A stretch of DNA of 64,000 nucleotides, from NCBI GenBank assembly GCA_028820845.1, contig JAPPII010000026.1:1-64000 (forward strand). Reading direction: 5' to 3'. Position numbers and translations under genes: made by a program. Source of the DNA: Candidatus Poribacteria bacterium. Its GTDB lineage: Bacteria > Poribacteria > WGA-4E > WGA-3G. Numbering within the stretch: position 1 is the stretch's first letter; every line of letters starts with the position of its first letter. A model generated the notes under the pieces. It was not told where the DNA came from, made no database searches, and was given only the letters and a program-made list of their open reading frames with translations. Of the stretch, positions 10,838 to 16,175 are shown one piece after another.

Positions 10838-10899
10838 ATACAGTGGGAGGTCGCGAGCTGGGGCTCACTCCTACGAAAGAATTGGAGAATATATACATT

Positions 10900-11919
10900 A
10901 TGGATAAAATCCGAATTGCTTTTATCGGTTGTGGTGGCATGTCTTCGCAATTGCAGCAGTGTATACCGATGGTGCCGGCGTTTGAATTCGTCGCTACCTG
11001 TGACCTCGTTAAAGAAAAAGCAGAATCCAATGCCCGAAAGTTCGGGGCACTCCGTCATTATACGGATTACAACGAGATGTTTGCAAATGAGGATCTCTAC
11101 GCAGTCGCTGTTGTCGGTAGACCCGAGGATAAACTCCATCGAGACATCGGTATTGCTTGTCTCCGCCGCGGGTATCACATCTACACTGAGAAACCTCCTG
11201 CGACTACTGCTGAAGGCGCGAAAATGCTTGTTGATGCGTCAAATGAAACCGGTAAGACAGGCATGGTAGGCACAATGTGGCGGCATGCACCCGCACACCA
11301 GATTGCCAAGCAGCTGATGGACGAAGAAGAGTTCGGTGCGGCATGCCAGTATCATACACGCTATCTCGCCCCAGGTCCGCGGCTTCAGGAGGCGGGGTCC
11401 CCGTTTGCGTGGCCCTTCATGCTTGATCAAGTAATCCATCCGACCGATTGTATGCGTTTCTTTATGGGACAAGTCAGTGAAGTTTATGCGACGGGGACGG
11501 TTGATACAGCATCCAGCACTGTGTCGTTATCTGTGAACCTCCGCTACGAGAACGGCGGCATCGGGACGATGACCCTCGGCACTGGTCCCGTTTTAGAAGC
11601 GATGGTTTTCATCAAAGGCACTGGCAATCAAGCAATTCAGGTGTTGGAAACGCGCCAATTGCGCCGTTACCGTATGCCGACATGGCTCGGTGAGGGGGGC
11701 GGTTACGCTGATACACCGACTGAAACGTGGGATCTCAACACCGCATATCATGGTATTGGTAGACCCGGCTATCTCGAAGAGATGCAACATTGGGCAAAGT
11801 CGTTGCAAGAAGGGACGCAACCGCATTCCAGCCTTGAGGATTCCTATCAGAATATGCGCGTTTTGGAGGCGATTAGCCGTAGCGTTGAAACAGGAGAGGT
11901 TGTTCAAATTTCTGCCTGA
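10900..11919 (+). CDS. Gfo/Idh/MocA-family NAD(P)-dependent oxidoreductase
   Basis: The start is taken as the ATG at 10900, since the protein then opens directly with the Rossmann fold (MDKIRIAFIGCGGMSS), giving 339 residues; a GTG at 10843 would add 19 poorly structured residues. The EKP motif (YTEKPPATTAEGAKML) is present near residue 98, and the C-terminal half is the expected open beta-sheet domain with LDQVIHPTDCMRFFMG, whose His and Asp suit the catalytic site. Such enzymes oxidise sugars, inositols or related polyols using NAD(P). The substrate is not predictable. The zinc-ribbon gene follows after 21 bases. Confidence 0.85.
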   Translation: MDKIRIAFIGCGGMSSQLQQCIPMVPAFEFVATCDLVKEKAESNARKFGALRHYTDYNEMFANEDLYAVAVVGRPEDKLHRDIGIACLRRGYHIYTEKPPATTAEGAKMLVDASNETGKTGMVGTMWRHAPAHQIAKQLMDEEEFGAACQYHTRYLAPGPRLQEAGSPFAWPFMLDQVIHPTDCMRFFMGQVSEVYATGTVDTASSTVSLSVNLRYENGGIGTMTLGTGPVLEAMVFIKGTGNQAIQVLETRQLRRYRMPTWLGEGGGYADTPTETWDLNTAYHGIGRPGYLEEMQHWAKSLQEGTQPHSSLEDSYQNMRVLEAISRSVETGEVVQISA

Positions 11920-11940: not shown

Positions 11941-12837
11941 ATGGACTGGGCACCGCGGGTCAAACCCATTAAAATCCGTCAACTTTACCGATATGCTCGA
12001 CTCGGCATCTATGAAGATACACTGCTACACGATGTCGGTTGGGAACTCTACGCTCGCTGTGCAGACATCGCCACAGTCGCCGATGTTTATCGCGAGGGAC
12101 GTGTGCCATGTCCAAAATGCAGAACGAAGATCACGCGCCGGATTGACCCGCTCTTTAGTAAAGGCGAGGGGGGAACCCACGAACACTGGTTTCACTGCCC
12201 CCACTGCACCGGACGACTCCTCTGGCGCGACTGCCGTCAAGCCCTCCGAGACACCCCGCGATGTTTTGATTGTCGCGCCGTTCTACAGAAAGAAGTTGTG
12301 TTGCGATGCACCTGTGGTAAAACATGGTCCCAGGAAGCCTATAAGCAGTCGGTGAGAACCCGTGTCCTCTTACCCTGTCCTCACTGTCTTGAGCTCGTCC
12401 GTAGACCGGATCCACCGCCAGTGGAGCGAACCTCCAGAAATTGGCGATCCGATCCTGAGTTGCAATGTCCCAAATGTCAAAGCGTCGCACTCCATCAGCA
12501 CGGTAATATTGAATGTACCGTCTGCGGCTACAAACGGCGATGGCGGGATTACCGAAAGAGTCTAAAAAAGAAGGATGAAAAACTCGAATGTCCGAATTGT
12601 GAACATGCCTTCAGGTGGCAGGAGTGGCGCAAAAGTGTTCGGTCCCTACGGACTGGGAATCCACAACCCGCTCGTGAGTTCGTTAAAAAATGGCGCAAGT
12701 GCCGCACACCACAACAACGTATGATACAAATTGACACGCTACTCCAAACCCTGCACGGTAGAGGTCCATTGGCTCCGTTATTTATTGATAGTGGTGAACA
12801 GAAAATTCGCCAAATGCTTGACGACTTGGCATCATAG
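11941..12837 (+). CDS. Tandem zinc-ribbon protein of unknown function
   Basis: A 298-residue protein with eight cysteine knuckles: C57/C60, C86/C89, C108/C111, C123/C125, C146/C149, C176/C179, C192/C195 and C217/C220. Several are linked by a repeated helix-like segment of the form W-R-D-x-R-x-S (LLWRDCRQALRD, TWSQEAYKQSVR, RWRDYRKSLKKK, RWQEWRKSVRS), so the protein looks built from a duplicated unit of knuckle plus basic helix. The N-terminus (KIRQLYRYARLGIYED) and the C-terminus (about 245-298) are cysteine-poor and helical. Four or more zinc sites with basic helices suggest nucleic-acid binding or assembly of a complex. I do not recognise the family. Confidence 0.8.
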   Translation: MDWAPRVKPIKIRQLYRYARLGIYEDTLLHDVGWELYARCADIATVADVYREGRVPCPKCRTKITRRIDPLFSKGEGGTHEHWFHCPHCTGRLLWRDCRQALRDTPRCFDCRAVLQKEVVLRCTCGKTWSQEAYKQSVRTRVLLPCPHCLELVRRPDPPPVERTSRNWRSDPELQCPKCQSVALHQHGNIECTVCGYKRRWRDYRKSLKKKDEKLECPNCEHAFRWQEWRKSVRSLRTGNPQPAREFVKKWRKCRTPQQRMIQIDTLLQTLHGRGPLAPLFIDSGEQKIRQMLDDLAS

Positions 12838-12865: not shown

Positions 12866-13624
12866 ATGCAAGATTCTATTACTAAACCGCAATGGGCAGA
12901 GGAAAATTCCCAAGATTTCATTGACTACGGCAAATACTTCGTCCCTGACCGAGAGATCCAAATTGATTGCATTTGTGAAGTGATTCCATCTCCATCGAAA
13001 CCCACTTATATTCTCGATCTCTGTTGCGGTGCTGGACTCCTTACGCGGGCACTGTTGGATAGGTTTCCTGAATGCCACGTCTACGGTTTAGACGGTTCTC
13101 CGACAATGCTTGCTCACGCCGAAAAGGCACTTGCTGCTTATGGAGAGCGTTTTAAGACACACCTCTTCGATTTAGCTGCAAGCGATTGGCGCGAATTGCT
13201 TGTCCCCGTCCATGCTATTGTATCTTCTCTGGCGATCCATCACTTAGATGCTGTTGAGAAACAAACACTGTTCAAAGATATGGCATCGCTCCTGATGCCG
13301 GGTGGCAGTTTCATTATCGCTGATCTGACTGAGCCGATGGATCCTTTTGGACAAAGGCTTGCAGCGAAGGCTTGGAACGAAGCCGTGCGTCAACGTTCAC
13401 TGGATTTGGATGATGATTTGAGAGGATATGAACAGTTTTGTGAACTGGGTTGGAACCATTACGCACAACCCGAACCCGACCCAGATTCGATTGATAAACC
13501 GTCATCTTTGTTTGATCAACTTAAATGGCTTGATGAAGCCGGATTTGTTGATGTTGATGTTTTCTGGATGAAGGCTGGGCATGCTATCTTCGGAGGTCGC
13601 AAGCCGAACCCAGAATCAAAATGA
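12866..13624 (+). CDS. Class I SAM-dependent methyltransferase
   Basis: The start is placed at the ATG at 12866, after the zinc-ribbon stop, giving 252 residues; the frame is open upstream but would overlap that gene. Motif I ILDLCCGAGLLTRALL (about residue 50) binds SAM, the acidic loop VYGLDGSPTMLAHA follows, and motif IV-V IVSSLAIHHLDAVEKQTLF is the UbiE/COQ5-type pattern. A post-core region with MPGGSFIIADLTEPM is intact. The acceptor substrate is unknown. It probably belongs to the same rightward unit as the zinc-ribbon gene. Confidence 0.85.
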   Translation: MQDSITKPQWAEENSQDFIDYGKYFVPDREIQIDCICEVIPSPSKPTYILDLCCGAGLLTRALLDRFPECHVYGLDGSPTMLAHAEKALAAYGERFKTHLFDLAASDWRELLVPVHAIVSSLAIHHLDAVEKQTLFKDMASLLMPGGSFIIADLTEPMDPFGQRLAAKAWNEAVRQRSLDLDDDLRGYEQFCELGWNHYAQPEPDPDSIDKPSSLFDQLKWLDEAGFVDVDVFWMKAGHAIFGGRKPNPESK

Positions 13625-15347: not shown

Positions 15348-16175
15348 ATGCCTGAAGGTCAGGTTGTTGAGAAAACAAAAACACTCGCTACAGTTGAGTC
15401 GCTGCAGGTGGATTTTAAAGCACTCGGTATTGAAAGGGGAATGGTCTTATTAGTCCACTCATCCTTGAGTGCGATGGGATGGGTTTGCGGCGGTGCTGTC
15501 GCTGTTATCCTCGCACTTCAGGAAGTCTTAGGCGAAGTGGGAACACTCGTAATGCCGACCCACTCAACCGACCTGAGCGATCCGAGCCAGTGGGAAAACC
15601 CCCCTGTACCGGAATCGTGGTGGCAAACCATACGCCAGACGCTGCCCGCCTACGATCCCGATTTGACTCCGACCCGTTCAATGGGCAAAATCGCCGAAAC
15701 CTTCCGAAAACAAAAGAACGTTCTTCGCAGTGTGCATCCGCAGAGCTCCTTTTGCGCAAGTGGGCCCCAAGCATCTTACATCATAAGCAACCACTCCTTG
15801 GCGTTTGGCATGGGCGAGAATTCACCGCTTGCCAGAATCTACGATTTGGAGGGTTCTGTCCTGCTTCTCGGTGTCGGGCATTCGAGCAATACCTCTATAC
15901 ATCTTGCAGAATACCGAGCGGACTTTCCAACCAAGCGCGTTGTGCAGGAGGGTGCCCCGATCTCGCAAGAAGGTTCAAGAACCTGGACTACCTTTGAAGA
16001 TATTGATGTAGACGATTCAGATTTCCATCGCCTCGGTGAAGATTTTTTGCGTTCTGACGCGGGCAAAGTAGTTCGGCGTGGCAAGGTCGGCATCGCAAAT
16101 TGCCAACTCATGCCACAACGTACTATTGTGGACTTCGCTGTTGATTGGCTTGTGGGAAATAGGAAGAACCGATAA
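15348..16175 (+). CDS. Aminoglycoside N3-acetyltransferase-like protein (AAC(3) family)
   Basis: A 275-residue protein of normal family length. Conserved blocks include VLLVHSSLSAMGWVCGG near residue 35, GTLVMPTHSTDLSDPS near 65, RSVHPQSSFCASGPQA near 127 (the catalytic His lies in this family's H-P region), and LLLGVGHSSNTSIHLAEY near 165. AAC(3) enzymes transfer acetyl from acetyl-CoA to the 3-amino group of aminoglycosides; environmental members such as YokD types have other or unknown targets. AAGGTG lies just before the ATG. Resistance is a possibility only; the neighbours do not indicate it. Confidence 0.85.
   Translation: MPEGQVVEKTKTLATVESLQVDFKALGIERGMVLLVHSSLSAMGWVCGGAVAVILALQEVLGEVGTLVMPTHSTDLSDPSQWENPPVPESWWQTIRQTLPAYDPDLTPTRSMGKIAETFRKQKNVLRSVHPQSSFCASGPQASYIISNHSLAFGMGENSPLARIYDLEGSVLLLGVGHSSNTSIHLAEYRADFPTKRVVQEGAPISQEGSRTWTTFEDIDVDDSDFHRLGEDFLRSDAGKVVRRGKVGIANCQLMPQRTIVDFAVDWLVGNRKNR

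Follow-up and report, generated by a model that had tools for sequence, protein, structure and literature searches.

A four-ribbon variant of an unnamed bacterial zinc-ribbon family in the Poribacteria

RESULTS

A gene with eight cysteine pairs lies between a MocA gene and a methyltransferase gene

The DNA analyzed here, referred to as the window, is a stretch of 64,000 nucleotides from Candidatus Poribacteria bacterium, a bacterium of the sponge type. The gene of interest (the zinc gene), which is present in a single copy in its own genome, sits in a rightward run with a MocA enzyme and a methyltransferase, as the initial annotation had described. In the list of features below, the paired cysteines form knuckles that are numbered in order and are labeled a if they are bare and b if a helix follows.

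10843..11919, + strand: Gfo/Idh/MocA oxidoreductase (Pfam PF01408/PF02894), likely start 10900; ends 21 nt upstream of the zinc gene
11941..12837, + strand: whole zinc gene, encoding the long-form (four-ribbon) protein of 298 amino acids; open reading frame with ATG at 11941 and a stop that ends at 12837
11941..12096, + strand: N-terminal domain, residues 1-52, common with the short form (alignment, short-form profile E ~1e-18, AF2 helices)
12109..12120, + strand: knuckle a1 (C57, C60), ribbon A first half (invariant Cys)
12196..12252, + strand: knuckle b2 (C86, C89) and helix WRDCRQALRD, ribbon A second half (alignment, invariant Cys, shuffle test)
12262..12273, + strand: knuckle a3 (C108, C111), ribbon B first half (invariant Cys); not in short forms
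12307..12357, + strand: knuckle b4 (C123-x-C125) and helix WSQEAYKQSVRT, ribbon B second half (invariant Cys, shuffle test); not in short forms
12376..12387, + strand: knuckle a5 (C146, C149), probable first half of ribbon C, which is split (invariant Cys; pairing with b8 by elimination)
12466..12477, + strand: knuckle a6 (C176, C179), ribbon D first half (invariant Cys, AF2)
12514..12573, + strand: knuckle b7 (C192, C195) and helix WRDYRKSLKKK, ribbon D second half (invariant Cys, AF2, shuffle test)
12589..12648, + strand: knuckle b8 (C217, C220) and helix WQEWRKSVRS, probable second half of ribbon C, which is split (alignment, invariant Cys, shuffle test)
12655..12834, + strand: C-terminal helical domain, residues 239-298, common with the short form (alignment, short-form profile, AF2)
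12866..13624, + strand: class I SAM methyltransferase (Pfam PF13649), following the zinc gene

The 298 residues include 19 cysteines, 16 of which form eight pairs, seven of the CxxC type and one, pair 4, of the CxC type. The protein had been described as eight cysteine pairs that alternate with a helix; the eight pairs and the in-register helix are both real, but the helix (W..Y/W..S) is found only after pairs 2, 4, 7 and 8, while pairs 1, 3, 5 and 6 are bare, such that the order of the pairs is a-b-a-b-a-a-b-b. Counted from the second cysteine of the pair, the helix has W at +6 (or +4), an aromatic residue or Cys at +9 and S or A at +12. This register is not expected by chance: when all residues except the paired cysteines, which were kept in place, were permuted, none of 200,000 trials reached even three in-register units (the maximum was two), compared to the four observed. 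The array is flanked by an N-terminal domain with the pattern W.PRV...KIR.LY....G..D..L....G..L..RC, in which AF2 predicts two helices (residues 9-20 and 26-52, pLDDT mostly 65-76), and by a C-terminal domain with the pattern RTPQ.RM..ID.L...H ... LD.LA, in which pLDDT is 82-86 at residues 241-270 and falls afterwards. The linker that follows knuckle a5 is variable, and the b8 unit runs on into the C-terminal domain without a break.

The cysteine pairs imply four ribbons, one of which is probably nested in another

The order of the eight pairs implies four zinc ribbons. We infer that ribbons A (a1-b2), B (a3-b4) and D (a6-b7) are in ordinary sequential order. Once these are assigned, a5 and b8 are left over and, if all 16 cysteines bind in fours, would have the fourth zinc in common; they probably close the fourth ribbon, C, around an inserted ribbon D. 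A nested arrangement of two zinc sites, one within the other, may also occur in PriA. The AF2 models have a mean pLDDT of 58.7 for the long form and 67.3 for the short form described below; in the former, the predicted strands (182-186, 189-192, 214-216 and 223-225) and helices (201-209 and 226-236) are consistent with a pair of ribbon-plus-helix units in this region. Foldseek found no match with E ≤ 0.001, and no global fold match, in PDB or the viral folds of BFVD. A single ribbon does locally resemble the ribbons of TFS4 and of Csl4 from the archaeal exosome in the fold search (probability 0.87-0.89, with poor E-values).

The protein matches no described family over its full length

The initial annotation knew of no family with this repeat, and this holds: we found no full-length match in Pfam, NCBIfam, PHROGs (weak, chance-level matches only) or PADLOC (nothing), in addition to the lack of a fold match in PDB or BFVD. 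Sequence searches of PDB returned nothing beyond chance matches and zinc fingers that are unrelated to the protein, the Pfam and NCBIfam scans show no catalytic domain, and a literature search found no description of the family. Nor does the protein clearly match a ribbon family of topoisomerases or RNA polymerases, the result that the annotation had named as one that would count against it. The likeness to TFS, RPB9 and Csl4 zinc ribbons is confined to single ribbons, each resembling ribbon D; the window protein falls far under the family cut-offs (21.6 bits versus 64.75 for TIGR01384 of NCBIfam, the RNA polymerase/TFS family), and those proteins have no ribbon array and have other surrounding domains. 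Similarly, YfgJ (PF07191), DZR (PF12773) and the PriA zinc insert have adjacent or possibly nested CxxC pairs, but they bind two zincs rather than four, the double-zinc-ribbon families give no significant match (PF07191 E 0.41), and the window protein has no helicase context.

The closest candidate is TackOD1 (PF18551), the CxxC-rich output domain of archaeal response regulators, which has several CxxC pairs and belongs to the multi-CxxC layouts that have been likened to the PriA zinc insert (PMC5847659). In hmmscan, the window protein scores 36.7 bits (cut-off 32), and about half of the aligned members, 26 of 51, have matches with E ≤ 0.001. However, the best match, at residues 175-225, spans 46 of the 188 profile positions, that is, one ribbon and the next knuckle; the score is 26.5 bits, under the cut-off, in a six-frame genome search; none of three short forms scanned matches; and the window protein has no receiver domain and differs from TackOD1 in its end domains. 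That the protein is a bacterial member of TackOD1 is thus extremely unlikely, and is largely refuted by the coverage.

Distant poribacterial families carry a short form with a single ribbon

We found a short form of 200-230 amino acids in G064, G078, G079 and G082, four genomes that belong to more distant families of the Poribacteria. The short-form loci are L062:3048-3746, L063:1160-1906, L064:3044-3739 and L065:1926-2534. It consists of a two-helix N-terminal domain, one CxxC...CxxC ribbon with a W..Y.KS helix, and a helical C-terminal domain. The window protein retrieves the short forms as a query (E 4.5e-10 to 1.1e-12), and a profile built only from short forms matches the long forms at both ends, with E ~1e-18 at the N-terminus and down to 8.7e-11 at the C-terminus. 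In the alignment, the sole ribbon of the short form corresponds to the b2 unit, and the extra ribbons of the long form sit between the end domains that are common to both. The W.PRV...KI...Y....G domain is present in the window protein, with columns that are invariant or near-invariant across both forms, as is the C-terminal domain ending in LD/LE.L, with T256, D265, H272 and L293 invariant.

The two forms differ in that the ribbon with its W..Y.K helix occurs four times in the window protein versus once in the short form, which is also near neutral in charge, and in that the short form keeps an H-E-x-H (HEFH/HECH) and VNLI.G segment, where the long form has QTLH...APLFID. Because this segment is missing, we file the long form as a variant and not as a standard member. 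Judged from these alignments, the long form is shown to belong, as a variant, to an unnamed zinc-ribbon family of bacteria, with an interior that appears to have been expanded to four ribbon-plus-helix units. The direction, from one ribbon to four, is inferred from the wider spread of the short form, with no rooted tree used. As a separate observation, the zinc gene of one genome (G040, L066:4144-4370) carries a further in-frame insertion between knuckles a5 and a6, made up of 5.8 tandem copies of a 39-bp repeat; in the same locus, the C-terminal part of the gene is partly duplicated (L066:5386-5619) and two MocA genes stand in tandem.

The long form is strongly conserved in two poribacterial families

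In a search of 85 genomes of the phylum with the short-form profile, 64 had matches: 59 to a long form (one of them, G043, truncated), four to a short form and one to a fragment (G074). Within Poribacteria the long form occurs in two families, f1 and f4, whose long forms have all positions in common, at 64-68% identity to the window protein; one internal expansion that preceded the divergence of f1 and f4 would be the simplest reading of these sequences. The gene is absent from genus g3, which is in the same family as the window genome, in at least six genomes (G038, G044, G046, G051, G052 and G055), and is therefore dispensable, since some close relatives do without it.

Where the gene is present, it is under strong purifying selection, with dN/dS against the window gene of ∼0.06-0.09 in comparisons with unsaturated dS. 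All 16 paired cysteines, as well as C40, C98 and C254, are invariant in 47 of 47 full-length long forms from the fetched loci (64-92% identity), and many non-Cys residues, both in the ribbons and in the two end domains, likewise vary little or not at all.

Few relatives were found outside Poribacteria

Two of 398 genomes in the phylum of genome G134, presumably Bacillota since this phylum bears Spo0A, have decayed relatives of the zinc gene. One (G517, L121:1500-1920) is a short-form fragment that lacks the N-terminal part, near a contig end and behind a MocA-like gene; an Rfam scan of the odd sequence that precedes this fragment found no family. The other (G247, L122:1270-1700) is a decayed short form behind a probable cellulase-type glycoside hydrolase, an identity read from its sequence. 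There was no match in 300 genomes of the order of G134 or in 80 genomes outside Poribacteria (nearly all of other bacterial families), although such empty answers are weak proof. With the short form as query, plasmids, phages and viral contigs also returned nothing, which leaves an origin from a phage or mobile element without support.

The neighborhood of the zinc gene varies, and its junction with MocA is often interrupted

The link to the MocA enzyme and the methyltransferase that the initial annotation implied finds no support beyond local synteny in our survey of neighbors in other genomes. A methyltransferase homolog is listed beside the zinc gene in only seven compared loci, and no conserved partner gene in the compared loci points to a process. 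An Antibiotic_NAT gene (aminoglycoside 3-N-acetyltransferase family, E 1e-94) at 15348-16175 of the window is kept nearby across much of f1.

The case for a subunit that assists the neighboring Gfo/Idh/MocA oxidoreductase, or a sugar pathway, starts from the presence of MocA directly upstream in nearly all f1 loci, with a 4-nt overlap of the two genes in two genomes (L066 and L068). A MocA gene is likewise next to the short form in both G079 and G078, and next to the decayed copy in G517; three independent adjacencies in ∼7 lineages are more than expected (P of the order of 0.002, a post hoc estimate), given that a poribacterial genome has ∼100 MocA genes and that G517 has 44. However, the neighbors in f4 are different; the MocA that neighbors the G079 short form belongs to a different subfamily, the best match to the window MocA lying elsewhere in that genome; G044, which has no zinc gene, keeps two copies of the window-type MocA; and toxin-antitoxin modules repeatedly break the junction. 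We consider a partnership with MocA very unlikely and mostly reject it on these four grounds. What is left is a weak signal, seen post hoc, of a tendency of the zinc gene towards neighborhoods of sugar enzymes. Genome G000 (5.7 Mb) has ∼100 Gfo/Idh/MocA genes, and other Poribacteria have 81-150.

The junction itself looks like an insertion hotspot. Two unrelated small modules of the toxin-antitoxin type are found there, HicBA in eight loci (L034, L041, L044, L046, L050, L054, L055 and L077) and DUF433 with DUF5615 in six (L038, L048, L049, L051, L061 and L071), and seven loci have toxin-antitoxin remnants (L033, L045, L052, L058, L069, L072 and L075). The junction in the window genome is only the 21-nt gap.

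DISCUSSION

The zinc gene encodes a real, conserved and undescribed multi-ribbon protein, whose anatomy is well supported. The window protein has a net charge of +24, to which the ribbon region contributes +20, and long forms range from +22 to +32, while short forms range from -4 to +14. Because the long forms are so strongly basic, we favor nucleic-acid binding and tentatively suggest, at somewhat less than even chances, that the protein is a basic, nucleic-acid-binding accessory protein in which the expanded basic ribbons are the binders. Such a protein would bind four structural zinc ions per chain; the basic helices on successive ribbons would together make up a positively charged face to which DNA or RNA binds; the conserved helical domains at the two ends may dimerize or recruit a partner; and the role of the protein would be an accessory, non-catalytic one, in transcription or RNA handling, for instance. 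We count in its support that TFS4 and Csl4, the ribbon look-alikes, both belong to nucleic-acid machines, and against it the modest AF2 confidence, the lack of a global fold match and the lack of a conserved partner gene. Moreover, the near-neutral short forms mean that nucleic-acid binding may not be the core function of the family.

The short forms also speak for the main rival, a protein-protein adaptor that bridges other proteins without contacting nucleic acid, its ribbons serving for docking or as rigid spacers. Zinc ribbons often mediate protein contacts, the short forms are not basic, and the end helical domains are what the whole family has in common besides the ribbon. Yet the four units bring strong positive charge in every long form checked, for which a neutral spacer has no need, and we regard an adaptor as possible but on the unlikely side. 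If the cysteines themselves were the function, as in a zinc store, a metallochaperone or a redox sensor, their abundance (19 in 298 residues) and the invariance of all 16 paired cysteines would be explained, but not the near-invariance of so many other residues in the ribbons and end domains, nor the single ribbon of the short form; no zinc-uptake gene was recognized among the neighbors examined, and we find this explanation quite unlikely. The initial annotation had taken the basic helices to suggest a nucleic-acid scaffold, which is plausible. The more ambitious proposal, that it is an undescribed bacterial nucleic-acid-binding scaffold, with a ribbon-plus-helix array, including the nested ribbon, that has grown within one phylum and modules that read successive sites on DNA or RNA, would be rather a long shot.

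This family is kept in most sampled genomes of one bacterial phylum and is traceable elsewhere, without a Pfam or NCBIfam entry. The series from one ribbon to four would illustrate the growth of zinc-ribbon arrays by internal, possibly nested, duplication. If nucleic acids are indeed bound, the long form would be a multi-ribbon binder of a kind rarely described in bacteria, and if the scaffold reading were true, it would be a bacterial counterpart of the multi-zinc-finger proteins, made from a different finger.
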